Shown here piece after piece: positions 1-26,200 of a stretch of 64,000 nt of DNA. Position numbers and translations under genes: made by a program. Numbering within the stretch: position 1 is the first letter of the stretch; each line of letters starts with the position of its first letter. The notes under the pieces are model-generated. The model saw only the letters and a list, made by a program, of their open reading frames with translations. It was not told the origin of the DNA and searched no databases. The stretch spans positions 124,001 through 188,000 of the forward strand of contig NZ_JAHUXH010000008.1 in NCBI RefSeq assembly GCF_019219825.1, read 5' to 3'. The stretch is from Streptomyces sp. TRM70350 (GTDB lineage: Bacteria > Actinomycetota > Actinomycetes > Streptomycetales > Streptomycetaceae).

Positions 1-531
1 GCTCTCCGGCTGCGGGGCGCCGGTGACCGCGGTGTGCTCGGTGACCGAGTAGCGGCGCGGGTCGGTGGCGTACCACTGCACGGACGCGCGGGAGACGCCC
101 TGGGTGGCGTACGTCCGGTCGGCGGTCAGCACGCGCTGGCTGATCCGGGCCCGGACGGCCAGCGTCTCGCCGTGCAGCCGAACCGCGAGCCAGCGCTCCT
201 CGTCGCCGAGCAGCAGGGCCTGGCGCAGGATCCTGGTCGCGGTGAGGGAGGCGTCGGCGCCGTTCGCCGACGGCACGGTGTGCACGGTGCCGCCGACCTT
301 GCGGGGCTTGGCGTAGCGGGCGCCGGGCCAGGCGCCGTGCGCGGTCGGGTGGTCGGCGTCCCCGGTGTCGTACTCCGGCAGGTCCTCCCAGCCCGTCAGG
401 CCGCCGCGGTCGATCTCGTAGGGCGTGCCGGGGCCCAGCAGCAGTCCGGCCCACTGCATCTGCCCGTCGCGGGTGATGAGTGAGCCGGGGGGAAGGTCCT
501 CGGTGTATGCGGTTGTGGTCAGTTCGGCCAT
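1..531 (-). CDS. Siphoviral distal tail protein-like, partial (3' end outside window)
   Basis: The first 177 codons of a minus-strand gene are visible; the rest runs off the left edge. It starts at an ATG (531) preceded by GAGGTGA and reads MAELTTTAYTEDLPPGSLIT. The body has the polar, loop-rich character of actinophage proteins that follow the tape measure, with segments such as YEIDRGGLTGWEDLPEYDTG and VSRASVQWYATDPRRYS, as in Dit/minor-tail proteins joining tube and baseplate. It lies 24 nt downstream of the second tape-measure-like gene, which is the normal position for a distal tail protein. The family call rests on these segments and on position. A receptor-binding or lysis function, if any, would lie further left. 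Confidence 0.6.
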   Translation of the reverse strand, partial: MAELTTTAYTEDLPPGSLITRDGQMQWAGLLLGPGTPYEIDRGGLTGWEDLPEYDTGDADHPTAHGAWPGARYAKPRKVGGTVHTVPSANGADASLTATRILRQALLLGDEERWLAVRLHGETLAVRARISQRVLTADRTYATQGVSRASVQWYATDPRRYSVTEHTAVTGAPQPES

Positions 532-555: not shown

Positions 556-1791
556 TCAGGTGCATGCGTGTGCCGACGCGAGGAAGAGCAGGTCCTCGGC
601 GGTGCTGCGGGCGCCCGACGTCTCGTGGAACGCGCGGATGCGGTGCGGGTGCCGGGGGCGTTTGCTCGTCAGGGCCCGCTGCCGTTCGAGGGCGGTGAGC
701 GGGAGCACCCTGCCCGCGCGGCGCGCGATGCCGGGGACGGCGACGCCGCCCTCCGCCAGCATCGGGATCTTGTCCAGGTCGACGCCGAACTTCTTGCCGA
801 GGAGGGAGAAGCTGAGGCTGTTGAGCCCGTCGATGACCCAGTTGGCGAAGGCGATCAGGCCCTGGATCGGGCCCTTGACCACCCCGGCGACGGTCTGGGC
901 GCCGGTGGTGACGAACTGGCCGATGCCGCGCAGGGTGCCCGCGGTCGCCTCCTTGATCCGGGTGAACATCCGCGGGATGTCCCGGGTGATCCACTGCACG
1001 ACGGGCCGGACCGCGTCCTTGAACCCCCGCCACACCGCGGACACCCTGCCCCTCAGCGCCCGGGTGTCGCCGGTGGTGAGCGCCCTCAGGACGGCGAAGC
1101 CCGTGCTGACGACCGCGCCGATACCGGTGATCACCCCCTTGATCAGGGCGAGACAGCCCTTGAAGTACGTCGACACCACCGACCGCACGGTCTTCATCAC
1201 CGGCCCGATGACCGCCAGGTAGCCCTCGACGTACTTCAGTACGAGGGTGGCGAGCTGCCGCATGAGGCGTTGCCCGGTCTCGGAGTTGAGGGCGAGGCCG
1301 AGCAGCCAGCCGGCGACGGGGAGGAGCAGGCCGAGGACGAAGCCGAGGGGGTTGGCGCGGGTGAGGACGTTGATGGTCGTCATCACGACGGCGCCGATGG
1401 TCATGGCGGTGCCAAAGGTGCCGAGGAGGGTGCCGACGACACCGGCGGCCGCGATGAATCCGCCGATCAGGGAGAGCAAGCCGTTGTTCTTCAGCCTGCC
1501 CAGGGCGCGGGAGGCGGCCCGTGCCTTGCCGCCGACGGACTTCACGCCGGTGGCGGTGCCCTGCCTCAGCTTTCCCACGGACCGGGCGGCGGCCTCGGCG
1601 TTCGCCTTGAGCTGCCGCAGGGCCGTGCCGCCCTGGGCGGCGGTGCGGATGCGGTCGGTGGCGCCGGCGGCGCCCTTGACGCGGGCGGTGAGGGACTGGA
1701 GCGCGCCGGCGCCCTGGCCGAGGCCGCTGCGGAAGGCGCGGAGGGCGGGGGCGACGCCGGCGAGCGGGTTGACTGCCGCTGCCGCACTCAT
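556..1791 (-). CDS. Tape-measure-like tail protein, second copy
   Basis: 411 residues. The start is taken at the ATG (1791) that overlaps the upstream stop as ATGA; a GTG three codons earlier is also possible. The N-terminal ~110 residues are Ala/Arg-rich and helical. Residues ~100-200 carry long hydrophobic, Gly-rich segments such as LIGGFIAAAGVVGTLLGTFG, and the C-terminus has the tape-measure signature KKFGVDLDKIPMLAEGG followed by RVLPLTALERQ. Tape-measure proteins set tail length and hold hydrophobic, injection-associated segments. This copy is a clear paralogue of the gene just upstream, sharing the VWRG...PVVQW...GPI.G order. Two short tape-measure-like genes in tandem are unusual. It could instead be a tail-tip accessory protein derived by duplication. 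Confidence 0.65.
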   Translation of the reverse strand: MSAAAAVNPLAGVAPALRAFRSGLGQGAGALQSLTARVKGAAGATDRIRTAAQGGTALRQLKANAEAAARSVGKLRQGTATGVKSVGGKARAASRALGRLKNNGLLSLIGGFIAAAGVVGTLLGTFGTAMTIGAVVMTTINVLTRANPLGFVLGLLLPVAGWLLGLALNSETGQRLMRQLATLVLKYVEGYLAVIGPVMKTVRSVVSTYFKGCLALIKGVITGIGAVVSTGFAVLRALTTGDTRALRGRVSAVWRGFKDAVRPVVQWITRDIPRMFTRIKEATAGTLRGIGQFVTTGAQTVAGVVKGPIQGLIAFANWVIDGLNSLSFSLLGKKFGVDLDKIPMLAEGGVAVPGIARRAGRVLPLTALERQRALTSKRPRHPHRIRAFHETSGARSTAEDLLFLASAHACT

Positions 1792-2993
1792 CCGCGCCAC
1801 CCACGTGCCTTGGCCAGGTACATCAGGGCGTCGGCGGTGCGCTGCGGGCTGCTGGACTCGGTGGCGTAGTAGTTCTCGATGTGCAGGGCGCCGCCGGCGA
1901 AGGCGGGCGTCGGCCCGTACGCCGAGCCGCGTGCCGCCGCGCTGCGCAGCAGCCGGTCGAGCTTGCTGAGCGGCAGTACGGCCTCCGCCTCACCGGCCTC
2001 GGCGAGGATCGCGGGGACACCGCCGGAGCGGGGCATCACGACACCGCCGGCCGCGAGGGCGGGGATACGGGGCAGGTTGACGCCGAAGGACTTGCCGCCG
2101 ACGCGGGGGACCCAGCCGGGGATGGACACCTTGATGCCGTTCAGGGCGCCGATCGCGCGGTTGATGATGCCGATGACGCCGTTGATCGGGCCCCTCACCG
2201 CGCTCTTGATGCCGTTGAAGGCACGACCGGCGATGCCCTTCAGGCCGCCCCAGATGCTGGACAGCCTGTCCTTCACGGCACGGAAGGCGTTGGGGATCGC
2301 CGACTTGACCCAGTTGACGACGGGTGAGATGACGGCCTTGATGCCCCGCCACACGCTGCTGACGACGCTCTTGATGGCCTTCAGCGCGGTGGTGATGACC
2401 TTCTTCCAGAGGTTGACGTAGGTCCGGATGACGGTGGCCACGGCCTTCACCACGGCGGAGATCGCGCTCTTGATGCCGTTCCAGACGGACCTGATGAGCT
2501 TGGCCGCGTTCTTCATGATCGGCCCGATGGCCTTCATGACCTTGCTGATCACGGACTTGATGGCGTTGAAGGCCGTCTTGAGGACCTTCTGCATCGTCTT
2601 CGACCTGGTCGCCATCTCGACGACTTTCTCGATGAGCGGCGCGAGCAGGTCCATGAGCATGCCGAAGAAGTTGCCCTTCATCGACTTGTTCATCTTGTTC
2701 TGGCCCTTGGCGGCCTTGGTGGCGCCGGACTCGTACTTGCCGAGGTTCTTGCCGGCGGTGGAGGCGGTCCTGCCGGTTTTACCGATGGACTTCTCGGCCT
2801 GGCCGGATGCGGTCTTGAGGTCTTTCAGTTCTTTTTCCGCGTCCTGAGCGGCGCTCTTGAGGCGCTTGACCTCACCCGCGCTGGAACCGGCCTTGCTCTT
2901 CAGGGCGTCGACCCCGCGGCCGGCTCCGTCCGCCTGGTCCTTGAATCTCTTGAGTGCCGAGGACGTGTTCTGCAGTGAACTGGAGAGGGACAT
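1788..2993 (-). CDS. Tape-measure-like tail protein, first copy
   Basis: 401 residues starting MSLSSSLQNTSSALKRFKDQ. Residues 1-110 are Lys/Ala/Ser-rich and predicted coiled coil. Residues ~115-290 are a string of amphipathic repeats of the type VIxxVWxGIKxVIxxVVxxV. The C-terminus has the tape-measure ending with PRIPALAAGGVVMPRSGG and EAEAVLPLSKLDRLL. Full phage tape measures usually exceed 700 residues, so this would specify a short tail or a core remnant. It is translationally coupled to the paralogue downstream (ATGA) and lies 59 nt after the coiled-coil gene. It belongs to the minus-strand tail operon, separated from the tail-chaperone genes by the insert at 3880-6642. Confidence 0.7.
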   Translation of the reverse strand: MSLSSSLQNTSSALKRFKDQADGAGRGVDALKSKAGSSAGEVKRLKSAAQDAEKELKDLKTASGQAEKSIGKTGRTASTAGKNLGKYESGATKAAKGQNKMNKSMKGNFFGMLMDLLAPLIEKVVEMATRSKTMQKVLKTAFNAIKSVISKVMKAIGPIMKNAAKLIRSVWNGIKSAISAVVKAVATVIRTYVNLWKKVITTALKAIKSVVSSVWRGIKAVISPVVNWVKSAIPNAFRAVKDRLSSIWGGLKGIAGRAFNGIKSAVRGPINGVIGIINRAIGALNGIKVSIPGWVPRVGGKSFGVNLPRIPALAAGGVVMPRSGGVPAILAEAGEAEAVLPLSKLDRLLRSAAARGSAYGPTPAFAGGALHIENYYATESSSPQRTADALMYLAKARGWRG

Positions 2994-3879: not shown

Positions 3880-4728
3880 ATGCCCCGTGGGTCCGAGTCG
3901 TCCCCGCTTCCGTCGATCACGCTCCGGGGATACGGCGACAGCATCTGGCTGGAAGGCAGGGCCCTCCTGCTGGAGCAGAAGGGGTCACGTCGGCGGATAC
4001 CGATCGCGGCGGTCGAGGAGGCCCGGGTCACGGGCCGCGGCGGCCGGTCGGTCGAGGTGGTGCTGTGGGGCGAAGGCGGGGTTCCCGGGCCGGTGTTCGC
4101 GGTGCAGGGGCGGGACGCGGAGGCCGCCCTGCGGCTCGTGGAGGTGGTCAACCGGGCGCGGCCGGAGACGGGGCCCCCGCAGGGCGGGGCGGCTCTGGTC
4201 GACGTGCTGGCGGTGGGACCGGCGGAGGCCAGGCGCGGCAACCGGCGCAGGCGCGCCCTCGATTTCGCCGTTCTCGCGGTCTACCTCGGCGGTATCGCCG
4301 GGCTGGCCATGGCGGGGAGACCGTTTCGGGCCCTGCTGTGGGCGACCGGGGTGCTGCCCCTCGCCCTCGGCCTCCTCCTCGTCGGGCCGGCCCTCGTCGC
4401 GGCGCGCCGGCGGTGGGTGCTGAGGAAGCGGGGGGTCGCGGTCGTGGCGGTGTTCGCCCACGGCGGCGGCCAGAAGAAGTACTACCGGTACAACGATCTG
4501 GCGGGCGGTGTGCACGAGATCCGGGCCGACTACGCGGCGCGGGGGATCGGCGGCGACTCCGGGCGTATCGAAGTCGTCTACGACCCGGAGGACCCCGGCA
4601 CGGCCGTCTGTTCGCTGGCTGTCGCGACCCTGGTCTTCAGGACGGCGGGGGTGGTCCTGCTCGGGGTACCGCTGGTGCTGCTCGGGATCGCCATGACCGT
4701 GGGCCAGGCGCTGGGCCTGCTCTTCTGA
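3880..4728 (+). CDS. DUF3592-like membrane protein
   Basis: 282 residues, ATG preceded by AAAGAGG. The N-terminal ~90 residues look like a small beta-rich, PH-like domain (ITLRGYGDSIWLEGRALLLE). Two hydrophobic segments follow at ~128-170 (FAVLAVYLGGIAGLAMAG and LLWATGVLPLALGLLLVG). A soluble domain at ~185-240 matches the DUF3592 pattern (RGVAVVAVF, then IEVVYDPEDPGTAV), and a C-terminal membrane pair closes the protein. DUF3592 proteins are common in Streptomyces and their function is unknown. The gene is divergent from the coiled-coil tail gene and opens the three-gene block that splits the tail module, so it does not look like a tail component. Confidence 0.7.
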   Translation: MPRGSESSPLPSITLRGYGDSIWLEGRALLLEQKGSRRRIPIAAVEEARVTGRGGRSVEVVLWGEGGVPGPVFAVQGRDAEAALRLVEVVNRARPETGPPQGGAALVDVLAVGPAEARRGNRRRRALDFAVLAVYLGGIAGLAMAGRPFRALLWATGVLPLALGLLLVGPALVAARRRWVLRKRGVAVVAVFAHGGGQKKYYRYNDLAGGVHEIRADYAARGIGGDSGRIEVVYDPEDPGTAVCSLAVATLVFRTAGVVLLGVPLVLLGIAMTVGQALGLLF

Positions 4729-4790: not shown

Positions 4791-5003
4791 CTACGGCCGT
4801 CGTGGGCGGCCGGCGACCCGTCCGGCCTCCGTCAGGGCGTCGGCCCAGCCGGCCGCGTAGGCGCGGGACTCGCGGGTGAGGAGTTCCTCGTACAGCCGGT
4901 CCAGCAGTGCCTCGCGGTTGGGGGCGGGGGTGTGCAGGAGGCTGGCGAGGCGGGTGTAGGAGTCGGTCGGCTGCTGCGGGGAGTCACTCGTGCGAGTCGC
5001 CAT
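4791..5003 (-). CDS. Small protein with AYAAGWADA motif, SOS-box upstream
   Basis: 70 residues from the ATG at 5003; an in-frame ATG at 5027 would add eight. The C-terminal half contains LTRESRAYAAGWADALTEAG followed by GRPRRP. The same AYxAGWADxxxE core occurs in the divergent neighbour at 5365-6642. I do not recognise a named family. A LexA-type palindrome lies 73 nt upstream of the start (5076-5091), so damage-inducible expression is plausible. The gene is convergent with the DUF3592 gene and sits in the insert inside the tail module; a link to induction or release of the tail particle is speculation. Confidence 0.6.
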   Translation of the reverse strand: MATRTSDSPQQPTDSYTRLASLLHTPAPNREALLDRLYEELLTRESRAYAAGWADALTEAGRVAGRPRRP

Positions 5004-5364
5004 GTCGGCCTGCTTTCCGGGATCCATCGGGCTGGTGGTACAGGTGGCGCCTGCGGGGGTGTTCGGTGCCTCTGTTCGAACAAGTGTACGAGTAATCCTG
5101 TGGAGCCCGTCGGTGTTTGTCGAGAGCTTTCGGTCGTGTACTGGTCCGGACCTGCGGGGACGTGCGTGTGTGATGGAGGGCGGGTGAAGGTGTCGGCAGG
5201 TCGCTCGACTAAGATCCCGCTTCGTACTGCCGTCGTGACGCACAAGTGAACAGGCGGGCGCCCACCAGTGACCACGGGCCCTGGCCGGCGACGGTGGACG
5301 GCTACGGCGGCCGTCCTCGCGCGGGGGGCGCGCAAGGGCAGGGGACGAGAGCAAGGCCAATGGG
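5004..5364. other. Intergenic region between divergent AGWAD-motif genes
   Basis: This 361-nt region separates the starts of two divergent genes that share a sequence motif. It holds the LexA-like palindrome at 5076-5091. It also contains a dinucleotide-rich tract (TGTGTGTGATGG near 5165) and no other recognisable element. Confidence 0.5.
5076..5091. promoter_or_regulatory. LexA (SOS) box candidate
   Basis: TCGAACAAGTGTACGA matches the actinobacterial/Gram-positive LexA consensus TCGAAC-N4-GTTCGA at 11 of 12 fixed positions (GTACGA replaces GTTCGA). It is centred about 80 nt upstream of the start of the small gene at 5003 and could also affect the gene at 5365. The consensus is established; binding here is inferred. 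Confidence 0.5.
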
Positions 5365-6642
5365 GTGGAAGCGGACGCTGGTAACGCGCGGCATGAACAT
5401 GAACATGAACGTGATCGTGATCGTGCTCGGCTGATCGACTGGCTCGAACAGTCACCCGACCTGCCCCATCTCATCGCCCGCGTCTCCGAGATCGTCCACC
5501 GGCTCGGCTACGCGCCCGAGGACCTGGTCGTCCTGCCCCGGCGCGAACTCGACCGGCGCGAGCTCGCCGCCTACAGCGCCGGCTGGGCCGACGTCGTCGC
5601 CGAGCAACTCCCTCCGATACGGAAGGCGTACGAGGAGCGGATCACCGCTGCCTACCTCCAGGGCCAGGAGGACGCCCGCACCGGCCGCCGCCCTCGACGG
5701 GCCCGGCGAGCCGAGGGCGTGGGGGGTGGCGAGGGTGACGTCATACCGCTCCCGTATGTTCCGCTGCTCGATCCGCCCCGCGTGATGACGCGAGTAGAGG
5801 AACGGGGGGAGCGGGAACGGACGTTGGCCGAGGGCGGGGACCGGATCGAGGGCGGGCGTGGCGCCGAAGGAGGGCGTGGCGCCGGTGACAGGGACCGGAC
5901 CGGGGCCGGGCGTGGCGCCGAGGGCGGGGACCGGATCGGGGCCGGGCGTGGCGCCGACGGCGGGGTCCCAGCCGAAGGAGGGCGTGGCGCCGAGGGCGGG
6001 GACCGGATCGGGGCCGGGCGTGGCGCCGAGGGCGGGGACCGGATCGGGGCCGGGCGTGGCGCCGAGGGCGGGGGCCGGATCGAGGGCGGGCGTGGCGCCG
6101 AGGGCGGGGACCGGATCGGGGCCGGGCGTGGCGCCGACGGCGGGGTCCCAGCCGAAGGAGGGCGTGGCGCCGAGGGCGGGGACCGGATCGGGGCCGGGCG
6201 TGGCGCCGACGGCGGGGTCCCAGCCGAAGGAGGGCGTGGCGCCGAGGGCGAGGACCGGATCGAGGGCGGGCGTGGCGCCGACGGCGGGGGCCGAGCCGAA
6301 GGAGGGCGTGGCGCCGACGGCGCCGGTTCCGGTAAGGGACCCGAGGCCGACATCCTCGTCTCGGCCCGCGATGTGCGGGACCGGCAGCAGCCGGTCAGGC
6401 CCGATCGGCGCAAGGTCGTACGGCGGAACGGGCGGCCGAGTGTGCCTCCGCTCGCCAGGCCCGGCGAACCGGCCAGTGGTGCGCGCGAGCGGGTGCGGAC
6501 GGAGGGGCCGGAGCCACAGGACCCCGACCGGCCGCGGCTGTCGGAGAAGGCGCGTGCTCTCGCCGACGAATTCGAAGGCAGGGCCGCGGCGACGGCGCGG
6601 GGCAAGGACGAGAAGCCTGGAGCAGATCCCGGCTCGCGTTGA
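5365..6642 (+). CDS. Low-complexity protein with ~13 dodecapeptide repeats
   Basis: 425 residues from GTG 5365. After a His/Glu/Asp/Arg leader (HEHEHERDRDRAR), residues ~24-115 form a helical domain containing LAAYSAGWADVVAEQLP, the motif shared with the divergent small protein, and then YLQGQEDARTGRRPRR. Residues ~155-325 are about 13 copies of a 12-residue unit alternating between RGAEGGDRIGAG and RGADGGVPAEGG, encoded by a 36-bp minisatellite (5827-6333). The tail is Arg/Pro/Glu-rich and charged, probably disordered. No known family. The frame is supported because the conserved motif lies in it and it stays open across all repeats. The antisense frame through the repeats is also open, so translation is not proved. 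Confidence 0.6.
   Translation: MEADAGNARHEHEHERDRDRARLIDWLEQSPDLPHLIARVSEIVHRLGYAPEDLVVLPRRELDRRELAAYSAGWADVVAEQLPPIRKAYEERITAAYLQGQEDARTGRRPRRARRAEGVGGGEGDVIPLPYVPLLDPPRVMTRVEERGERERTLAEGGDRIEGGRGAEGGRGAGDRDRTGAGRGAEGGDRIGAGRGADGGVPAEGGRGAEGGDRIGAGRGAEGGDRIGAGRGAEGGGRIEGGRGAEGGDRIGAGRGADGGVPAEGGRGAEGGDRIGAGRGADGGVPAEGGRGAEGEDRIEGGRGADGGGRAEGGRGADGAGSGKGPEADILVSARDVRDRQQPVRPDRRKVVRRNGRPSVPPLARPGEPASGARERVRTEGPEPQDPDRPRLSEKARALADEFEGRAAATARGKDEKPGADPGSR
5827..6333 (+). repeat. 36-bp tandem minisatellite in coding sequence
   Basis: About 13 copies of a 36-nt unit, most copies differing at a few positions and one shortened to 18 nt. Two unit classes (encoding RGAEGGDRIGAG and RGADGGVPAEGG) alternate irregularly, which points to repeated unequal exchange or slippage. 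Copy number is expected to vary between strains. Confidence 0.9.
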
Positions 6643-6725: not shown

Positions 6726-7142
6726 TCAGCCGAAGAACCGGGCGAGCTGAGCCGGTGACGGCGCCGCTGCCGTGCTGTCCTCCCGGCCCGCTCCGGACTC
6801 CTGACCCTCCGTCGGCGCGTCGTCGCCCGGACGCGGCACCGGCACCGGAGGATCGGGCAGGTCGCCCTCCTCCGCCGTGTTGACGCAGGCGAACATCCAG
6901 TTGGCGGCGGCCAGATGGTCCACGACGGCGGCGAGGAGATGGTCGGTCACCGACCACTCCGCGGCCTCGCCGTGCAGCTCGCGGTTGAGCGCGCTGTCGC
7001 GCGGCAGGTGCTTGATGAGCACCGCGAGCCGCCGGGAGGAGAGTCGTTCGCGGTGCCAGTCGAGCAGGTCGGTGCCGTAGTAGCGGAGCAGGTCCGCTTC
7101 GAGGGCCTCGGCGTGTTCGTCGACGAACCCGACGAGGCTCAG
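6726..7142 (-). CDS. Tail assembly chaperone, -1 frameshift extension (GT-like)
   Basis: This frame has no convincing start of its own near its upstream end (the first internal start is at 7022). It is open from inside the slippery site of the preceding gene at 7139-7429. Read from there it gives RLSLVGFVDEHAEALEADLL, then YYGTDLLDWHRERL, and ends in a Pro/Ser-rich tail (138 codons). Siphoviruses make a G/GT-type pair of tail chaperones by -1 frameshifting, and the overlapping frame, position before the tape measure and aromatic/acidic character all fit. In this genome the tape-measure genes are not immediately downstream but lie beyond a 3-kb insert. It could alternatively be a separately initiated small protein. 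Confidence 0.65.
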   Translation of the reverse strand: MSLVGFVDEHAEALEADLLRYYGTDLLDWHRERLSSRRLAVLIKHLPRDSALNRELHGEAAEWSVTDHLLAAVVDHLAAANWMFACVNTAEEGDLPDPPVPVPRPGDDAPTEGQESGAGREDSTAAAPSPAQLARFFG

Positions 7143-7429
7143 CCTTCCCCCAGGCCGAGCCCGGTCTCCTTGCCGTAGGCCTCCAGGATGGCGGCGATGT
7201 CCTGCATGGTGACCTCGTGCTGCTCGAAGCGGGCGAACTGCTGCTCACCCATGAGCAGCCGGAGCAGCCCGTCCACGTCGTTGTCGTCGAGGCCCCGCAG
7301 GGCGCGGGCGGTGGCGCGGGTCAGCTCGGTGGGCAGGGTGAAGGTCTCGTCGTCCAGGTCGAAGGACCAGGTGCGGCCGAGGGCTTCGAGGCGCTGGGCG
7401 CGGGCGGCGTTGACGTCGAAACGGGTCAT
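7139..7429 (-). CDS. Tail assembly chaperone (G-like)
   Basis: 96 residues, ATG 7429, preceded by GAGGAG. Reads MTRFDVNAARAQRLEALGRT and then a compact acidic helical domain (DDETFTLPTELTRATARALR, LLRLLMGEQQFARFEQHEV). It matches actinophage tail assembly chaperones encoded between the tube protein and the tape measure. The last codons (CTG GGG GAA GGC TGA) contain a G-run at which ribosomes could slip -1 into the open frame that continues to 6726. It lies 91 nt downstream of the tail-tube gene. Confidence 0.75.
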   Translation of the reverse strand: MTRFDVNAARAQRLEALGRTWSFDLDDETFTLPTELTRATARALRGLDDNDVDGLLRLLMGEQQFARFEQHEVTMQDIAAILEAYGKETGLGLGEG

Positions 7430-7520: not shown

Positions 7521-8126
7521 TCAGCCCGCCGCGTAGGAGCTGTCCTTCATGACGAAGCTCGCCAGCGGGGAGCCGTCCGGGGTGGCCATGGCCGTGAAGG
7601 TGATGCCGAGCTGGGCCGGCGCCTTGCGGGCCAGCTTGATGTCGTCGGCCGCGGTGACCTGGCCGCGCGGGATGCCGAAGCGGTACGTCACGTCGGTGCT
7701 GCCCGACTTGTCGGTGAACTCCAGGCCGAGGGCGCGGGCGTCGGCGTACGGGCGGTCCGCGATGTCGTACTTGTAGACACCGGTGGGCGTGGTACCGCCC
7801 AGGGCGCTGACGGCGCCGCCGCCCATGAAGAACGGCAGCGTGTCCTCGTTGAACTGCAGCAGGGAGAACTTCAGCGTCAGGTCCCGGTCGGAGTAGACGA
7901 AGTGCACCGGGCTGACCGCCTGCCAGACGTCGACCGGCTCCAGCTTGTCCTTCTTGCTGAAGGTGACGCCCTCGCCGGAGGTGTAGCCGAGGTCCTTCCA
8001 GTCGGCGCCCCAGTCGGCGGCGGTGTTGCCGTCGGTGACGGTCTCCGGTACGGCGGTCCCGGCGGCGGCGACGTAGAGCCGGCCGACGCCGGCGAGGCGG
8101 ATCTCGGAGGTGTTGGTGCCTGCCAT
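7521..8126 (-). CDS. Phage major tail (tube) protein
   Basis: 201 residues from ATG 8126, preceded by AAGGAG. It begins MAGTNTSEIRLAGVGRLYVA and contains segments typical of Siphoviridae tube proteins of Gram-positive phages: KDLGYTSGEGVTFSKKDKLE, DRDLTLKFSLLQFNEDTLPF and LGITFTAMATPDGSPLA. The likely role is hexameric stacking into a non-contractile tube; no contractile sheath gene accompanies it. It sits between the tail-terminator-like gene and the tail chaperone, the standard siphoviral order. A strong hairpin (8198-8227) lies between it and the upstream gene, so a separate or processed transcript is possible. Confidence 0.85.
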   Translation of the reverse strand: MAGTNTSEIRLAGVGRLYVAAAGTAVPETVTDGNTAADWGADWKDLGYTSGEGVTFSKKDKLEPVDVWQAVSPVHFVYSDRDLTLKFSLLQFNEDTLPFFMGGGAVSALGGTTPTGVYKYDIADRPYADARALGLEFTDKSGSTDVTYRFGIPRGQVTAADDIKLARKAPAQLGITFTAMATPDGSPLASFVMKDSSYAAG

Positions 8127-8261: not shown

Positions 8262-8678
8262 TCAGTGGACGGTGACCGCGACCTTGAGGACGCAGACGTA
8301 ACGGTTGGCCGCTGCGTACAGGTAGTCGGGCAGCCAGCGCGGGCCGTCCTGCTCGACCACGTCGGTGATGAGGTTCGTGCCGTACGTCCGGCCGGCCGCG
8401 GCCAGCAGCGCGCGCCGGCCGGCGTTGGCCAGGGTGTGTGCGGTGGCCTTGTCCGGGCCGTACACCTCCAGCTCGATCAGCGGCTCGTCGACGTGCAGCT
8501 CACCGACCCAGGCACCGCCGCGCCGGTTGACCAGCACGGCGGCGGTGGTGCCGTTGAAGTCGGAGGGCGGTTCCACCGCGACGAGCGCGGTGGACAGGGC
8601 CGAGTCGGCCTCCAGGATGTCGACGACCAGCCTCTCGACTTCGAGGAAGGCGCTCGGGGGAGGTACGGGTGTGGTCAT
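8262..8678 (-). CDS. Tail terminator/completion-like protein
   Basis: 138 residues, ATG 8678, preceded by GAGGTGA. It reads MTTPVPPPSAFLEVERLVVD, followed by an alpha/beta domain with VEPPSDFNGTTAAVLVNRRG and DEPLIELEVYGPDKATAHTL. This is the pattern of actinophage tail-terminator (gpU-like) proteins that cap the tube at the head-proximal end. Position just before the tube gene supports the call. In a complete phage the head-completion and capsid genes would lie directly upstream; here there is a repeat region and a repressor gene, making this the first structural gene of the operon. Confidence 0.7.
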   Translation of the reverse strand: MTTPVPPPSAFLEVERLVVDILEADSALSTALVAVEPPSDFNGTTAAVLVNRRGGAWVGELHVDEPLIELEVYGPDKATAHTLANAGRRALLAAAGRTYGTNLITDVVEQDGPRWLPDYLYAAANRYVCVLKVAVTVH

Positions 8679-8782
8679 GCCGGTTCACCTCGTAGGCGGC
8701 GGGGCGCACGGGGCGCCGGGATGCAGACGTCGGCGGAGCCGCCGCCCGCCCTGCGGGCACAGCTCCGCCGCTGCACCAACTG

Positions 8783-8810
8783 TGACAGATATCGTGCGCG
8801 CACGCAACTA
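8783..8810 (-). promoter_or_regulatory. Operator/promoter element of the tail operon
   Basis: Read on the minus strand this 28-mer begins TAGTTGCGTGCGCGCACG and ends ATCTGTCA. It matches the element at 9736-9763 at 25 of 28 positions, in the same orientation relative to the downstream gene. Its core is palindromic (GTGCGCGCAC). It lies 104 nt before the start of the tail-terminator-like gene. The neighbouring XRE repressor is the natural candidate ligand. Confidence 0.6.
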
Positions 8811-8907
8811 ATGAGGTGGGCGGGCTTCGGGATTCCGCTGGGGTAGAGGTGTCCGCAGGCGCCCTGCCCGCCGTACGCCGACCCTGGCGCCGCACGGGGG
8901 AGACGCC

Positions 8908-9021
8908 GGGCGCCGCATGCAGAAGGGGCGCCCCGCGATGTCGATGGGCGCCGCATGCAGAAGGGGCGCCCCGCGATGTCGATGGGCGCCGCATGCAGAA
9001 GAGGCGCCCCGCGATGTCGCT
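8908..9021. repeat. Three tandem 38-bp repeats with internal inverted repeats
   Basis: Units at 8908-8945, 8946-8983 and 8984-9021; the first two are identical and the third differs at two positions. Each has GGGCGCC and GGCGCCC arms flanking GCATGC, so each could form a hairpin; GGGGCGCCCC is itself palindromic in units 1 and 2. There are no spacers between units. The location downstream of the repressor and upstream of the tail operon suggests termination, protein binding or recombination; none is shown. Confidence 0.85.
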
Positions 9022-9081
9022 GGCGCCCTGGTGGTACCGGCGGTCGGCCCGCCGCCGCATCCGCTGAGGGTCCGCTCCGGG

Positions 9082-9606
9082 TCAGCCGGAGACGAGTGAC
9101 GGCTCCTCGGCGGTGGCGTTCTCGGTCGCGGGCGTCCGGCGTCGCCGCCCGCCGCCCTGTCCGCCCTGCCCGGCCTCCGGCGTCTCCTCGTCCCCCTCCG
9201 CCGGCAGGAACTGCTCCACCACCCGCACGAACATCTCCCGCCGGTCCGCCGGCACCCCCAGCAGTTCGGCGACCTCCTCCAGGGTGGGCCTGCGCCCCGG
9301 GTCGGGCCGGACGGGGTCGGAGGTCAGGTAGGCGTGCGGGTCGGCCAGTTCCTCCGCGGTCAGCCGGCCGGAGCGGATCAGCATGTCGCGGACGGGCACG
9401 CCGAGCACGCGGGCGAGCCGGCGGGTGGTCTCCAGGTCGGGCATGCTCTGCCGCTGCAACAGCCGGGTGACGGCGGCGCGGTGCACGCCCGCCTCGTCCG
9501 CGATGCGCGACTTGCCGCCGCCGCGCGGGCTGTCGATGTCGTAACCGCGGCTGCGCATCAGGTCCTCGACCCATGCTGCGAACGCATCCAGTTCGGGGGT
9601 GGTCAT
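9082..9606 (-). CDS. XRE-family transcriptional regulator (putative tail-module repressor)
   Basis: 174 residues, ATG 9606. The N-terminal ~75 residues form a Cro/CI-type helix-turn-helix: SRIADEAGVHRAAVTRLLQR followed by MPDLETTRRLARVLGVPVRD. The middle (~105-140) is a second helical segment (PTLEEVAELLGVPADRREMF), and the C-terminus is a disordered Gly/Arg/Glu-rich tail. Proteins of this type repress prophage and tailocin operons. It is transcribed towards the tail operon. Its upstream region (9643-9684) carries two imperfect palindromes built from the same TTGC/GCAC half-sites as the elements before the tail operon and the divergent gene, which suggests autoregulation and a shared regulon. 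Confidence 0.8.
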   Translation of the reverse strand: MTTPELDAFAAWVEDLMRSRGYDIDSPRGGGKSRIADEAGVHRAAVTRLLQRQSMPDLETTRRLARVLGVPVRDMLIRSGRLTAEELADPHAYLTSDPVRPDPGRRPTLEEVAELLGVPADRREMFVRVVEQFLPAEGDEETPEAGQGGQGGGRRRRTPATENATAEEPSLVSG

Positions 9607-9642
9607 GTCTGCTCTCGCTCTCTGTGGGTGACGGAAAGTTTA

Positions 9643-9684
9643 GCGTGCTTGCGCACGCGGAATTACGTGCTTTCGTGCAAGCAA
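9643..9684. promoter_or_regulatory. Operator palindromes upstream of the XRE gene
   Basis: Two imperfect inverted repeats: GCGTGCTTGCGCACGC (9643-9658) and ACGTGCTTTCGTGCAAGCAA (9665-9684). They share half-sites with the 28-mers at 8783-8810 and 9736-9763 and lie 37-78 nt before the repressor start codon, where they would overlap its promoter. Confidence 0.5.
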
Positions 9685-9735
9685 TGAGGGGGTTCGGTGC
9701 TGACGTGCGACGGGGAGGCCGCCGCTGATCGTTTT

Positions 9736-9763
9736 TAGTTGCGGGCGCGCACGCAATCTGTCA
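9736..9763 (+). promoter_or_regulatory. Operator/promoter element of the divergent gene pair
   Basis: A 28-mer beginning TAGTTGCGGGCGCGCACG and ending ATCTGTCA, nearly identical (25/28) to the element before the tail operon. Its core TTGCGGGCGCGCACGCAA is an almost perfect palindrome. It ends 4 nt before the GTG at 9768, so either the transcript starts within or just after it (a leaderless mRNA) or the true start codon lies further downstream. Confidence 0.6.
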
Positions 9764-9767
9764 GGGT

Positions 9768-10466
9768 GTGAGCCCCGTTCGTGAAACGACCTTGGAGGCT
9801 CCCTTGCCCGACCGGCCGACCGCACAAGCGGCCCTGTGGATCGGCGTGCTGGCCCAGCAGTTCCCGGAACTGTCCGAGGAACTGGCCCCCGGCCGCACCT
9901 CGGCGGCACACGCCCCGACCCCACCGCCCGCCGACCTCGGCGCCCGGCTCCGCCAGGAGCGCGAGGAGGCGCTGCTGCTGCAACAGCGGCACGGCCTCAC
10001 CGCCCCCGGCCACAGCGCGGCCCCGCTCCGCCTGCATGTCTCCGACGCCATCCGGGACATCACGGACGGCGTGGTGGAGCTGGAGGAGGCGGTACGGGAC
10101 CGGCTCGGCCTGCCCCGGGCACGGCGTGCCCCGGTGCCGGAACGGCTGCGGCGCATCGCGGCCCTGCTCGACGACATCGCGGGGGACGCCGTACTCGCCG
10201 CGCACGTACGGGACGAGACCCGCCGTATGGCACGGCGGTGCGCCCGTGCGCTGGGCGACACCGAGACGGTCGTACGCGTCCTTGGCCGCTGCCCCTGGTG
10301 CGACTCGGTCTCGCTGCGTGCCTTCCCCGACCGCCGCGCGGTGCTGTGCATCAACCCGGCCTGCCGCTGCGCCGACCCCGACTGCGGCTGCCGCGACGAC
10401 CCCGCCTACCGGCACATGTGGGACGAGACGGAGTGGTCCCGCACGCAGCAGGAGGCGGGCCGATGA
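9768..10466 (+). CDS. Hypothetical protein with Cys-rich zinc-ribbon-like C-terminus
   Basis: 232 residues from GTG 9768; the ATG-less 5' region leaves the exact start uncertain. Residues 1-185 are helical and Arg/Ala/Glu-rich. The C-terminus carries a dense Cys cluster, CPWCDSVSLRAF then CINPACRCADPDCGC, with CxxC-like pairs suited to binding zinc. Similar proteins are frequent in Streptomyces and actinophage accessory regions; I know no function. It is divergent from the XRE repressor, shares its operator-like motif, and overlaps the next HTH gene by ATGA, so the two are co-expressed. A DNA-binding or accessory regulatory role is an inference. Confidence 0.7.
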   Translation: MSPVRETTLEAPLPDRPTAQAALWIGVLAQQFPELSEELAPGRTSAAHAPTPPPADLGARLRQEREEALLLQQRHGLTAPGHSAAPLRLHVSDAIRDITDGVVELEEAVRDRLGLPRARRAPVPERLRRIAALLDDIAGDAVLAAHVRDETRRMARRCARALGDTETVVRVLGRCPWCDSVSLRAFPDRRAVLCINPACRCADPDCGCRDDPAYRHMWDETEWSRTQQEAGR

Positions 10467-10732
10467 GCATCCCGGAACGCCCGACCCTCATTCCCGGCCC
10501 GCTGGCCGCCCGTGAGGTCGGTGTGGCCCCGGCGACCATCCGCAAGTGGGTCCAGCTCGGACACCTCAGACCGGCGGGCAGGGCCGGGCGTGCCCAGCTC
10601 TTCCGCCTGGAGGACGTGTTCGCGGCGGAACGCGCGGCACGCGGCGCGACGGACGACGGCAGGGCCCGGCGCACCACCCGCCGGGCGGCCGACGGCGACG
10701 TCTACGGAACGCCCAGCTCGAACAGCACGTAG
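10463..10732 (+). CDS. Small helix-turn-helix DNA-binding protein
   Basis: 89 residues; ATG at 10463 overlaps the stop of the Cys-rich gene (ATGA). The HTH is AAREVGVAPATIRKWVQLGH followed by LRPAGRAGRAQLFRLEDVFA, the excisionase/MerR-like layout in which the helix pair and wing read DNA. The C-terminus is Arg/Asp-rich. Within a phage-derived switch it could be an activator, an excisionase-like protein or an anti-repressor partner; no integrase is present nearby. The 3' end overlaps the convergent GT-C gene by 31 nt. Confidence 0.7.
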   Translation: MSIPERPTLIPGPLAAREVGVAPATIRKWVQLGHLRPAGRAGRAQLFRLEDVFAAERAARGATDDGRARRTTRRAADGDVYGTPSSNST

Positions 10733-20238: not shown

Positions 20239-23200
20239 GTGTCCAGCCGCCCCCGTCACCGCTCGTTCGCGGGTCTCCTACGACACCGCTCCGGGCATTC
20301 CGCGCGTGCCGTCGCGCTGACGTCCGGCAGTGTGCTGCTGGCCCTGTGCGCCACCCTGCTGCCGATGCCCGCGCTGACGCCGTTCGTCCAGGAGGCCCAG
20401 GCCGCTTCCTGGTCCGACAGCACTCCGCCCGAGCAGCAAGCCGGCACTGCGGCCGGCCGGGAGCACGAGGTCGACACCGCACTCACGGACGCCAATGGGG
20501 ACAACAACGCCGACCCTGCCGACCTGCCTGGGGGCCAGGGCGCCCTGCCGCTGTACGACGCCGGTACCGGTTTCACGACTGTCGAACCCGAGTTGCAGAC
20601 GACAGAAATCCAGTCGCAGACGACCGAAGGCGGGGGTCACGGCGGCTACGACCCCGAGCTGAGTACCGAGCTTCCCGGTGAACGCACAGCCACCACCAAG
20701 GAGTTCAGCAACCCCGACGGCACACGCACCACTCGCGTCTACAGCGAGCCGGTGCACTTCCAGGACGCCTCCGGCGCGTGGAAAAACGTCGACACCTCGC
20801 TGGTCCCGGCCGACTCCACCGGCGACAGATTGGCACCCGCGGCCGACGACACCGACCTCACGCTGGCCCTGCGCGGAGACGATCCTGTCCTGGCCGAGCT
20901 GAGTGTCGACGACGGCCGCCACGAGGTCGGCTTCGGTATCGCCGGGGCCGCGAGCGCCGCCGCCGAGGTCAACGGCGATGCCGCTCGCTACCAGGATGTA
21001 CGCCCTGACTCCGACGTGGTCCTGCAGGCCGTGCATGGCGCGGTCAAGGAGACCATCGTCCTCAACTCGCCCGACGCGCCGCGCGAGTGGACCTTCCCGC
21101 TCGATCTCGGCGAGCTCACCCCGTCGCTCGACGCGCACGGGGCCGTCGTGCTGAAGGACGCGGCGGGCACGGTGCAGGCCGTCATCCCCAAGGGATGGAT
21201 GGAGGACTCCTCCCATGACCCCACGACTGGCGGTCCGGCGCTCTCCGGCGGCGTCGACTACCGGCTCACGCACAGCAGTGACCGCTGGTCGCTGACAGTG
21301 GTGCTCGACGATGCCTGGCTGTCCGCACCGGAGCGCGTGTATCCGGTGAAGGTCGATCCCAGCGTCACCGACGTGGACACCAACGGCGACTCGTTCGTCC
21401 AGGACTCCTGGCCTGACAGCAACTTCTCCAGTGACGACGAGCTGAAGATCGGCAGCTACGACGCCGGCGTCAACCGAGCGATCAGCTACCTACGATTCGA
21501 CAACGTCACCAGTCAGCTGAAGAACCGTTACGTCCTCAACGCCGACCTGGGCCTGTACAACGTCTGGTCCTCCAGCTGCACGGCGCAGGAGATGCTGGTC
21601 AAACAGGTCACCGGCTCGTGGAGTTCCAGCACCGTCACCTGGAACAACCGTCCGGCGAGCTCCACCGACGTGATCGCCGGCGACTCCTTCGCATACGGCG
21701 AGAACTGCGGTGGTTCCAAGTGGCGTGTGATTGACCTCGGCAAGAAGGGCACCGACCTCGTCGAGGGCTGGGTCAACGGTTCGGTCGCCAACCACGGCCT
21801 GTCCATCTGGGCCGACTTCGCTTCCTCCGGCCCCTGGAAGCGGTTCGGCAGCAACAACTCGGTCAACAAGCCGTACCTGGCCGTCACCCACAGCGCATAC
21901 GGCGCGCAGTACACCGTCGGCGAGCAGACCGAGCCGCTGACCGGAGGACAGGGCGGCGAGGTCACCCTCACCGTGAAGAACCTCGGCGACTTCACCTGGG
22001 AGCCGCTCGGCTGGAATGACGTCCGCCTGGGCGCCCGGGTGCGCAACCACAGCATCGGCGCGCTGATGAACCAGGTCGCCTTCACTCGACTCAACGAGCG
22101 CGTCACGCCCGGCGACGACACCGTCCTGAGCGCCCGCATACCCTCGCTGCCGCCGGGCCAATACAAGATCAACTTCGACATGCAGCTGCTGCGTGATCAG
22201 AGGTGGTTCTCCAGCCAGGACGTTCCCGTCGCCACGGTCACCGTCACCTCGCAGGACATCGGCCCTCGCATTACCAGCGTCTACCCGCACCCAGGCGGCC
22301 AGGTCGGCAGCCTGACCCCGGCCCTGTTCATGGCCACCGAGTCCATCGACCGCTACCCGGCCGGCGCGGCGATCGACTCCTACTTCCAGGTCTGCGAGGG
22401 CACCTCCGCCGCGCCCGTGAACTGCGTCAGCTCCGGCTGGCAGAGCAAGCGCATCTGGAACGTCCCCGCCGGCAAGCTCGCCTGGGGCAAGCAGTACATC
22501 TGGCGAGTGATGGCCCGTGAGAACGGCCTGGCGACCCCGCTCAGCCCCTTCTACACCTTCACCACCGCTGTCGAGCAGCCCGCGATCACCTCGCACCTCG
22601 GCGGTCAGGGCCTGGACGGCACCGGCCGCGAGATCGACCCCGGCATCGGCAACTACACCACCACCGACACCGACGCGAGCGTCGCCACGGTCGGCCCCGG
22701 CCTGACCGTCACCCGCACCTACAACAGCCGCGACCCGCGTTCCGACAACGCCTTCGGTTCCGGCTGGTCCACCCGATACGACATGCGGATCACGCCGGAC
22801 GGCGACGGCACCGGCAACGTCGTGGCCACCCTGGCGACGGGCCGTCAGGTCCGCTTCGGCAAGAACCCCGACGGCAGCTACGCACCCCCGTACGGCAGCT
22901 TCTCCACCCTCACCGCCGTCACCGGCGGCGGCTGGAAGCTGACCGACAAGGAACAGACGACCTACGTCTTCGACGCAAGCGGTCGCCTCACCCAGGTCAC
23001 CGACTACCGGGGCCGCGCCCAGACGCTCACGTACGACGCGACGACGGGCAAGCTGACCACGGCCACCGCCACGGGCGGTCGCACCCTGCACTTCACCTGG
23101 TCCGGCGGCCACGTCACCTCCGTCACCACCGACGCCCCCAAGACCGGCACCGACCCTCTCACCTGGACCTACACCTACTCCGGAGACCGGCTCACCCAGG

Positions 23201-26200
23201 TCTGCGGCCCCGAGGACGCCCCCGGCGCGTGCACCGCATACGGCTACGGCGACGGCTCCCACTACCGCACCGTCGTCCGGGACGCCGGGCCGTTCTCCTA
23301 CTGGCGGCTGGACGAGGCGGCCGGTGCCGACGATGCGGTGAGTGACCTGCCTCTGGACCGGAAGGACCACTACGGCGGCTACCACGGTGTCCAGCTCGGC
23401 ACCGTCGGCGCCCTGCCCGGCAGCACGGACACCGCGGCGACTTTCAACGGCAGTTCGGCGTACATGGACCTGCCCGACCAGCTGCTGACCGACAGCCCGT
23501 TCCTCACTGTCGAGATGTGGTTCAGGACAACCGAGCCAGGCGTCCTCGCCACGCTGCAGAACACCACCGTGGGTACCCAGCCCACGCAGTTCAGCCCGTT
23601 CCTGAACGTCGACGCGAACGGAAAACTGCGCGGGCAGTTCTACACGTCCGAGTACTACGGGACCAAGCCGATCGTCTCAAGCCAGGCCGTCACCGACGGC
23701 GCCTGGCACCACGTCGCCCTGACCGGTGCCGGCAACACCCAGACCCTCTACCTGGACGGCACCGCCGTCGGCAGCCTCACCGGCACGATCGTGATGCGCG
23801 ACGGCCAGTCCGCCTTCGTCGGCGGCGGCTGGAGCAGCCCAGGCTGGATGGGCGTCACCGCAGGCACCCACTACTTCGCCGGCGACATCGACGAGGTCGC
23901 CGTCTACACCCGCCCGCTCGGCGCTCGAACCATTGCCGAGCACCACGCCGCCGGCACGATCGCCCAGCAGCTGACCAAGGTGACGCTGCCCAGCGGCCGG
24001 GTGCACGCCGAGGTCGCCTACGACACCGTGCACGACCGTGTTTCGTCGTACACCGACGCCAACGGCGGCACCTACCAGCTCTCCGACCTCGCCGTGACCG
24101 GCACCGCCGACCAGCCCGCCGGTGACAACGAACCGGCCGTCGCCGGCACAACCACCCTCACGGTCACGGTCACCGACCCCGACCAGCGCAAGTCGAGCTA
24201 CACCTACGACCCGCTGCAGGGCAACCGGCTCATCAGCCAGACCGACGCGGCGGGCCACACCGGCACCTTCGACTACGACACCGGCGGCTACCTGGCGGCC
24301 ACAACCGGCCCCGACGGCACGGTCACCCGCTTCGGCAACGACGCACGCGGCAACAAGATCTCCCAGACCACGTGCCGCGACACGGCGAACAGCGCCACCT
24401 GCCACACCGCGCACTACAGCTACTACCTGAACGCCGCCGACCCGCTCGACCCGCGCAACGACCAGCTCACCGCCGTACGCGACGCCCGCTCGGCGAGCGC
24501 GACCGACGACACGTACAAGACGTCGTACGGCTACAACACCTACGGCGACCGGACTTCCACCACCTCCCCGGCCACCGCGGACTTCCCGTCCGGCCGCACC
24601 GAGTCCTTCACCTTCACCGACGGCACGGAAGCCGCGGTCGGCGGCGGCACCACCCCGGCGGGCCTGCTCGCCACCAGCACAGACACACGCGGCGCCGTGA
24701 CCGCACGGCAGTACACCGCGGTCGGCGACCTCGCGAAGGTCACCGACCCGGCGGGTGTCGTCACCGAGTACACCTACGACGCGCTCGGCCGCGAGACCGG
24801 CAGCAAGGTCGTCTCCGACGCACACGCCGACGGCGTCACGACCACCACCACCTACGACGGCGAGTCCCGCCCGCTGACGGTCACCGGCCCGGTCACCACC
24901 AACGAGGTCACCGGCACCGACCACCAGGCGCGCACCACGTACACGTACGACGTCGACGGCAAGGTCCTGACCGAGTCCGTCGCCGACCTCCTCGGAAGCG
25001 ACACCACCCGCACCACCCGGCGCACCTACGACACGCACGGCCGCCTGGCCACGCTCACCGACCCCGAGGGCGGGCAGGAGACGTACACCCACGACGTCCA
25101 CGGCCGCCAGACCAGCCGCACCCTGCCCGGCCGGGGCACCTTCCGCTACGCCTACACGGCGCTCGGCCACCTCGCGACGGTGACGCTCACCGGCTACACC
25201 GGCGACCCGAACAACCCGTCCACCGCCGAGGACGTGGTGCTGGACTCCTACGCGTACGACCCGGCCGGCCGCCTGGCCGAGCACACCGACGCGATGGGCC
25301 GCACCACCCGAAACACCTACTACGACGACGGCCTGAAGGCCCAGGAGATCCTCGCCGGCTTCCGTGACCCGGACGGCTCCACCCGCGACCTGGTACTGAG
25401 CGACCGCACCTACGACGCCACGGGGCATCTCGTCCGCAAGACCACCGGCAACGGCAAGGTCACCACCGCCTACGAGGTGGACGCCGCCGGCCGCACCACC
25501 GCCGAGGTCCTGGACCCGACGGGCCTGGCCCGCCGTACCGCCTACACCTACGACGCGGGCGGCGCCGTCATCGCCGTGACCGCCACGGGCGCGGGCGGCA
25601 CCCGTACCGAGAAGGTCAGCTACCAGCGCAACGCCACCGGTGACATCACCCGCGAGACGGTGGAGAACGGCACCGACGACCTCGTCACCACCTACGAGGT
25701 CGACGACCGCGGCCTGGTCGTCGCCGTGACATCCCCGCGCGGCAACGCCACCGGCGCCGACCCGGCCGCCCACACCACCGACCACCGCTACGACGCGCTC
25801 GGCCGCCTGGTCGAGACCCACCAGGCCCCGGTGACGGCCCAGACCCGGCAGTCCCCGGCGGCCACCGTCCGCCCGACCGTCACCGTCGGCTACAACACCT
25901 TCGGCGAGGCGACCGACGTCCGCGACCCCAACGGCCACGTCACGCGCACCGTGTACGACCGCCTGGGCCGGGCGACGAGCACGACGCTGCCCGACTACAC
26001 CTCGCCCGGCGCCACGGCCCCGCTGACGTCGAAGGCCACCCGGACCTACGACGCGGCCGGCAACCTGGCGAGCGAGACCGACGCTCTCGGCCGGACCACG
26101 ACCTACGGCTACGACCAGCTCGGCAACCTGGCCAGGGTGACGCTGCCGGCGCCCGAGGACGGCGCCGCCGCCCCGGTGTCGACGTTCACCCACGACCTGC

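Follow-up and report, generated by a model that had tools for sequence, protein, structure and literature searches.

The window analysed here, 64,000 nucleotides of Streptomyces sp. TRM70350 (contig NZ_JAHUXH010000008.1, positions 124,001 to 188,000), carries phage tail genes next to an XRE gene and a divergently transcribed pair of genes, and raises the question of whether a single repressor governs all three transcription units. The original prediction, made from the sequence, was that it does, through a 28-bp element shared by the tail and divergent operons and two related palindromes ahead of the XRE gene, in a lysogeny-like switch retained without the phage head. The features discussed are collected in Table 1.

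Table 1. Features of the tail cluster and its control region, in window coordinates.
Feature	Position	Strand	Details
Dit-type distal tail protein	1..531	-	extends past window edge; read on L087
Tape measure protein 2	556..1800	-	phrog_3981, E 2.1e-19
Tape measure protein 1	1788..2993	-	phrog_3981, E 8.3e-31
SosA	4791..5003	-	70 aa, RES.AYAAGWADAL motif; behind SOS box; candidate antirepressor (putative function)
SOS (LexA) box, TCGAACAAGTGTACGA	5076..5091		exact match to S. venezuelae LexA consensus of PMC9380542
Repeat-rich ORF	5365..6642	+	related AYSAGWAD motif; divergent from SosA across SOS box
Tail assembly chaperone 2	6726..7022	-	phrog_1326, E 4.9e-16
Tail assembly chaperone 1	7139..7429	-	phrog_10551, E 8.4e-27
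Tail tube protein	7521..8126	-	PF25681, E 1.9e-59
Tail terminator	8262..8678	-	phrog_123, E 6e-19
Conserved 5' leader of predicted tail mRNA	8725..8774	-	GCAGCGGCGGAGCTGTGCCC near +1; predicted hairpin
P_tail, tail-operon promoter and operator	8779..8810	-	25/28 match to P_R; predicted parts: dyad core CGTGCGCGCACG 8793-8804, -35 8802-8807, -10 8779-8784
XRE repressor gene	9082..9606	-	174 aa; HTH and C-terminal helices; HTH_3 32.7 bits
P_L, XRE's own promoter	9637..9665	-	predicted from sequence, kept in relatives; -10 TAAACT 9637-9642, weak -35 TAATTC 9660-9665, O_L1 9643-9658 in spacer
O_L2, possible second XRE-side site	9665..9684	-	non-palindromic; kept in part of family only
P_R, divergent-operon promoter and operator	9736..9767	+	sequence, kept in relatives; 18-bp dyad 9739-9756; predicted boxes: -35 9739-9744, -10 9762-9767
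ZnR, cysteine-rich protein, first divergent-operon gene	9804..10466	+	RBS GGAGG, start TTG 9804
MerR-type HTH protein, second divergent-operon gene	10463..10732	+	phrog_2474, E 1.9e-13

The two copies of the element, at 8783-8810 (minus) and 9736-9763 (plus), are identical at 25 of 28 positions and are oriented alike toward their downstream genes, both as predicted; when 8600-9900 was dinucleotide-shuffled 200 times, 28-bp inverted matches went no higher than 23, and no shuffle reached 25. In a repeat search the element lengthened to 29 nt at 90% identity. The 8.4-Mb genome contains TTGCGKGCGCGCACG in two exact copies, namely the P_tail and P_R elements, and the exact sequence TTGCGNGCNNGCNCGCAA only at 9739-9756. 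The match itself is therefore real, but the element was slightly misdescribed, being more probably a promoter that encloses an operator. Its layout is TTGCGnGCnnGCnCGCAA, spanning the -35 box and spacer, followed by TGTnAnnnT, with the 18-bp dyad starting at the -35 box and extending into the spacer. The promoter words are a -35 box TTGCGK, a 17-bp spacer and TGT ahead of the -10 box, which reads CACAGT at the tail promoter and CAGGGT at the divergent-gene promoter. A P_tail-type element also precedes the tail terminator gene in relatives. The ZnR start is probably TTG 9804, because GTG 9768 lies upstream of the transcript start predicted near 9774. A 38-bp unit in three tandem copies occupies 8904-9023, between the XRE gene and the tail promoter.

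By sequence comparison, XRE is related to the immunity repressors of SV1-type Streptomyces phages. It matches phrog_3949 (transcriptional repressor) with E 2.9e-15 and repressors in 36 Streptomyces phage records; the 20 phage matches listed have 32-37% identity over 72-76% of the protein, none covering over 80%, and the SV1 repressor is 33.9% identical across 72% of the protein (E 2e-10). No S24 peptidase domain was detected in XRE (Pfam at E 0.05, NCBIfam at 0.01), the only matches being HTH-type and low-score families. M78 (ImmA-type) peptidase, PF06114, had no match in the own genome, the control search being positive in 7 of 14 genomes. The HTH is nearly invariant across 22 aligned orthologues, in which 10 of the 13 residues at positions 42-54 (the third helix of the structure model) are invariant. 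A fold search gave 446 matches at E <= 10 and none at E <= 0.001 (model pTM 0.52), and tells no more than that XRE would be a Cro/C1-type HTH protein.

The two palindromes that had been predicted ahead of the XRE gene fared differently. O_L1 (GCGTGC-TTGC-GCACGC) has perfect 6-bp arms (6 of 8 pairs), and its word was found in 58 of 68 XRE-bearing loci of the second set described below and missed in 10, but the stretch at 9665-9684 forms only 2 of 10 pairs, although it has TTGC and GTGC words. The XRE-side dyad O_L1 also departs from the other two elements in its half-site spacing, N4 as against N2. This spacing, which one dimer may not tolerate, speaks against control of all three promoters by one protein.

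Conservation was followed in two sets of relatives. The first consisted of 199 Streptomyces genomes, 57 with some XRE match and 34 with one at E <= 1e-25; stretches were taken for 40 places and the window genes mapped onto them. For the second, the tail chaperone was used as bait and the best 80 of 169 relatives were taken; 7 of the 80 were dropped as copies for the P_R scan, leaving 73, and removal of 9 more loci sharing an exact 400-mer with training loci gave a stricter set of 64. Two gene orders occur, one as at this locus, with XRE followed by the tail genes in the same direction, and one in which XRE faces WhiB-ZnR-MerR-tail. Among 90 loci with XRE and the terminator (from both sets, some genomes being in both), XRE is opposite to the tail genes in 70 and co-directional in 20. 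A WhiB gene heads the divergent operon in many relatives (PF02467, 28.4 bits in one example), a WhiB match being present in 57 of the 80 second-set loci; none was found at this locus.

At least 16 of the 20 fixed positions of P_R are retained in 30 of the 34 loci of the first set; L066 was unmeasurable, L067 and L071 have poor sites and L069 has none. When whole loci were scanned in a leave-one-out manner with a matrix (trained on 31 of the 34 sites, with L066, L067 and L069 left out), P_R ranked first or second in all those 30, and most other hits above 20 were sites ahead of the tail genes. In the second set, 61 of 73 loci carry XRE, and a P_R score above 20 was found at the right place and strand in 60 of these 61. 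In L152, the sole miss, a strong site stands at another place in the locus, ahead of WhiB-ZnR, and is the only further match above 16 in the 1.35 Mb of second-set loci. After 400-mer removal, P_R was present in 52 of the 53 XRE-bearing loci among the 64.

At the tail promoter, a fixed pattern detected the operator in 61 of 85 distinct promoters, in both gene orders: 6 have the 18-bp dyad, 3 have one of 14 bp and 52, the window included, have the operator's 5' 14 nt; TTAGTTGCGTGCGCGCACGCTCTCTGTCACAGTT is an example from loci of the other gene order. Left out of the 85 were L122, L124, L128-L130, L137, L153, L210 and L211, where the terminator gene has no recognisable leader, and loci with fewer than 52 nt ahead of the leader. 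The P_R matrix scored above 12 at 36 of 66 tail promoters, several of the misses having one extra spacer base. The motif search in the genome and in orthologous clusters, suggested as a check when the shared code was proposed, thus spoke for it. By the same pattern, 24 of the 85 tail promoters are without an operator; by eye, a variant dyad can be seen in five of them (L088, L159, L186, L192 and L208), the leader of L069 is false and the -35 box of L142 has been lost; the count by pattern was left unchanged. The operator-less promoters include loci that have both XRE and P_R (L057, L058, L060, L063-L065, L068 and L125), and tail control by XRE is therefore not universal.

The exact 29-nt pattern TTGCGNGCNNGCNCGNNNNNTGTNANNNT has 23 matches, in 16 of the 199 Streptomyces genomes, and none when reversed. 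Each of the 16 belongs to the 34 genomes whose XRE match reaches E <= 1e-25 (Fisher p 1.4e-14, relatedness ignored), and 22 of the 23 matches lie at XRE or the tail cluster. The 23rd, in genome G012, follows ZnR-MerR of a cluster that is split into three distant pieces (L051, L122 and L123); the tail-type promoter and operator remained with ZnR-MerR, and no such element accompanies the terminator gene, which is found elsewhere. In G011 (L043:5140-5900) the tail genes beside XRE are gone, and the tail-type promoter and operator persist near the last small gene and rpoC. In the reduced locus of G109 (L062:3800-5203), XRE and a strong P_R site remain, and an amidase fragment and the tail cluster's last small gene lie downstream of P_R; no ZnR match was found genome-wide, and no WhiB, MerR, terminator or tail match in the locus. 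Conversely, G096 has ZnR, MerR and tail genes and no XRE match, and no operator match was found in its 14-kb stretch. These last two contrasts, each of one genome, and the co-occurrence together point to XRE as the probable binder of the dyad.

The element might instead be simply a common promoter, read by one sigma factor or by a WhiB- or MerR-type activator, in which the dyad is no operator. Regulators of the WhiB or MerR kind can act close to -35 regions, and the -35 and -10 words common to P_R and P_tail mostly persist where the dyad is gone. Yet the tail promoters that lack the dyad mostly retain TTGC and TCACA-T, so that operator and promoter are separable, and the dyad behaves as a block of its own, which one branch lacks and others have while the surrounding -35 and -10 words stay the same. 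It also persists in G109, where there is no match to ZnR in the genome or to WhiB or MerR in the locus, and gave no hit in the 14-kb stretch of G096, a genome with ZnR and MerR and without an XRE match. A common promoter without operator is accordingly unlikely.

A second alternative accepts the dyad as an operator and assigns it to ZnR, the MerR-type HTH protein, WhiB or a host factor, with XRE as a passenger. Association alone cannot name the binder, and XRE is usually found together with ZnR and MerR. Such an assignment is opposed by the G109 and G096 contrasts, by the invariant residues at XRE positions 42-54 and by the arrangement of a repressor beside a divergent promoter, as in SV1-type phages, and is considered quite improbable. 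Binding of the dyad by XRE thus remains the favoured reading.

The tail gene set is non-contractile and siphovirus-type, comprising terminator, tube, two chaperones, tape measure, Dit and minor tail proteins. The genes past the window edge were read on L087 (L087 position = window position + 8000), where Dit is followed by three phrog_3398 proteins, a minor tail protein and an amidase endolysin; rpoC and rpoB lie beyond the far end of the cluster. Among the tail-cluster genes scanned there was no match to a contractile sheath, and from XRE to rpoC the scan, which took in part of the small ORFs, recognised no head, portal or terminase gene. This agrees with the predicted lack of a phage head, although the three phrog_3398 proteins, which are in minor-tail position, bear the PHROG label 'virion structural protein', 'head and packaging'. 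As judged by its genes alone, the cluster would correspond to an F-type (siphovirus-like) tailocin, the class to which the Listeria monocin belongs. An open frame at 3880-4728 (plus), on the opposite strand within the tail operon, has no PHROG or Pfam match, and a 3048-aa open frame at 20239-29385 (plus) lies outside the finding. One 11.3-kb IMG/VR contig (L088) with a tail cluster and an XRE of this type is catalogued as virus.

A possible LexA input, which the original prediction lacked, is suggested by the SOS box within the tail cluster. The box follows the LexA consensus tCGAAC-N4-GNNCGa given for S. venezuelae in the available text of PMC9380542 and lies 72 nt ahead of SosA. The pattern has 72 matches in the own genome against 47 for its reverse, and a lone match is therefore weak; only the conserved position gives the box weight. 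In the second set, 58 exact boxes were found against 4 in reversed sequence, and an exact box lies 27-113 nt ahead of SosA or the related SosB in 42 of the 80 loci (SosA in 39, of 43 with a SosA match, and SosB in 3). The first set has 12 exact boxes against 1 reversed, and all eight examined precede a SosA/SosB-type gene. A putative LexA box ahead of a small gene within the element, the arrangement of antirepressor systems, is thus present here. SosA itself had no Pfam or NCBIfam match at 0.01 and one chance-level PHROG match (E 0.27). The products of sosA and of 5365-6642 have a common AY-xx-GW-xD motif, with the conserved SOS box between the two genes. Since XRE is without S24 and the genome without M78, LexA-controlled SosA may act as an antirepressor, and this is the preferred but unproven route of induction.

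The same evidence might be taken to mean that LexA alone runs the tail cluster, the XRE switch being a decaying relic. In addition to the boxes ahead of SosA or SosB, P_R has SOS-type boxes in its vicinity in 11 of 33 loci (L057, L058, L060-L065, L067, L068 and L070; counted without a shuffled control), and the available text of PMC9380542 describes a LexA-controlled predicted prophage cluster with a tail fibre gene in S. venezuelae. That may be another cluster; the two published 14-nt boxes of vnz_21525-21550 have no exact copy in the 80 second-set loci. Against this reading, XRE and the P_R operator are strongly conserved, with no decay, and the SOS box of the window is ~3.7 kb from P_tail, with genes in between, which makes control by LexA alone very unlikely. 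That two GC-rich stretches are alike by chance, as short two-copy matches often are and as a region of ~73% GC might allow, is practically excluded by the shuffles and by conservation across dozens of genomes. The reading retained is that of XRE acting on the three promoters, with LexA as a possible input.

Downstream of P_tail, the leader of the predicted tail mRNA forms a second conserved element. It is the only perfect copy in the genome, and in the second set a nearly invariant leader word precedes 63 of 66 terminator genes. The predicted hairpin, in which GCAGCGGCGGAGCTGTGCCC pairs with a downstream arm, occurs in 71 of 84 distinct leaders (L069 left out). Pairs were counted in 53 of those 71, and because these were chosen for folding with a single short hairpin the count leans toward structure. 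In the 53, 93% of pair cells are standard and three pairs are altered on both sides; the covariation score exceeded all 500 shuffles and slid versions, the both-side changes were matched in 10 of 500 shuffles, and further pair types did not exceed the shuffles (345 of 500). L039, L040 and L042, which have the gene order of the window, keep the 5' arm without the predicted hairpin, so the leader sequence itself may matter. The one Rfam match was at chance level, far under its gathering score, leaving the leader without a family. A leader peptide (GTG CAG CGG...) was rejected, as neither its start codon nor its frame is, by eye, constant among relatives.

The locus is thus probably a domesticated phage control region, in which XRE would be an immunity-type repressor acting at dyads in P_R, P_tail and P_L. 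What was obtained directly is that the elements exist, that they are conserved through gene rearrangement and that they co-occur with the XRE gene; from these we infer XRE as the binder, repression as the effect and the promoter assignments. XRE would bind dyads of type TTGCGnGCnnGCnCGCAA and, as the dyad lies on the -35 box and spacer at P_R and P_tail, its binding would block both promoters. Shut-off of P_R would silence the divergent regulators ZnR and MerR, with WhiB ahead of them in many relatives; shut-off of P_tail would silence the headless siphovirus-type tail operon, and at P_L a variant dyad filling the -35/-10 spacer would let XRE limit its own synthesis. Less certainly, the inducing input would be LexA-controlled SosA as an antirepressor. 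One repressor controlling three promoters is well supported by inference, from the conservation of the elements and the kinship of XRE, but the 24 of 85 tail promoters without an operator limit the claim. A fuller, two-layer switch, in which a non-cleaved repressor on three promoters is removed by LexA-driven SosA after DNA damage and the structured leader adds further control, is possible and is put forward only tentatively.

The lysogeny-like character of the switch is likely, given its layout and phage-related repressor, but its operator words differ from those of related phages. Like this locus, the phages SV1, Picard and Tubberson combine a homologous short XRE repressor (phrog_3949-type) with a divergent promoter gap, which contains dyads in SV1 and Picard; the facing gene is annotated cro in Picard and Tubberson and as a second 'transcriptional repressor' in SV1. 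The SV1-type phages differ in their operator words, the P_R matrix scoring at most 5.7 in six phage stretches versus above 20 in relatives. Use of the same operator in phages was rejected, as the exact extended P_R pattern occurred in 0 viral contigs and the six SV1-type loci have other dyads. The phage analogy is therefore one of layout, not of code, and the locus cannot be classed as an SV1-type phage immunity region because its predicted operator code differs. Moreover, the genes scanned here include no recognised cro, integrase or head gene, ZnR and MerR-type proteins are encoded in the opposite operon, and the tail operon has its own operator.

By analogy, the switch is placed with the kind known from the Listeria monocin, which in the available text of PMC6872733 is likewise a phage-derived element with a divergent, lysogenic-lytic style CI-like/MpaR switch and a lysis module. 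In the monocin, the metalloprotease MpaR assists in cleaving the repressor (PMC6872733), whereas here there is no Peptidase_M78 match and the regulators are others. The R and F pyocins of P. aeruginosa (PrtR/PrtN) also have repressor-controlled tailocin genes and a DNA-damage input, but in the text available (PMC8609362) PrtR autocleaves and acts via the activator PrtN, and here the same operator would serve the tail promoter and no S24 was found. Gifsy prophages resemble the locus in an uncleaved repressor and a small LexA-controlled gene outside the immunity region; their small proteins are antirepressors according to the part of PMC3121763 available, whereas SosA is only a candidate, likened by layout and not by sequence. 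Streptomyces contractile injection systems are also tail-derived and chromosomal (PMC10066040, PMC8910223, as far as their text was available), and contractile is what the Streptomyces tail machines in the literature examined are; here the tail genes are of the non-contractile siphovirus type, and the genes scanned gave no match to a sheath. No report of a non-contractile tail cluster without a head in Streptomyces was met in the literature searched by title and start of abstract, mostly outside subscription journals. New here are the SOS box ahead of a small tail-cluster gene and the conserved 5' leader hairpin.

As read from its sequence, the system descends from phage and consists of operators conserved at several promoters, in a tail cluster where no head genes were recognised. 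The operator code stays through rearrangement, which suggests that regulated tail expression is under selection. The switch would also offer a simple handle, in that deletion of XRE or DNA damage should turn the tail genes on and so make the function of the particle accessible.
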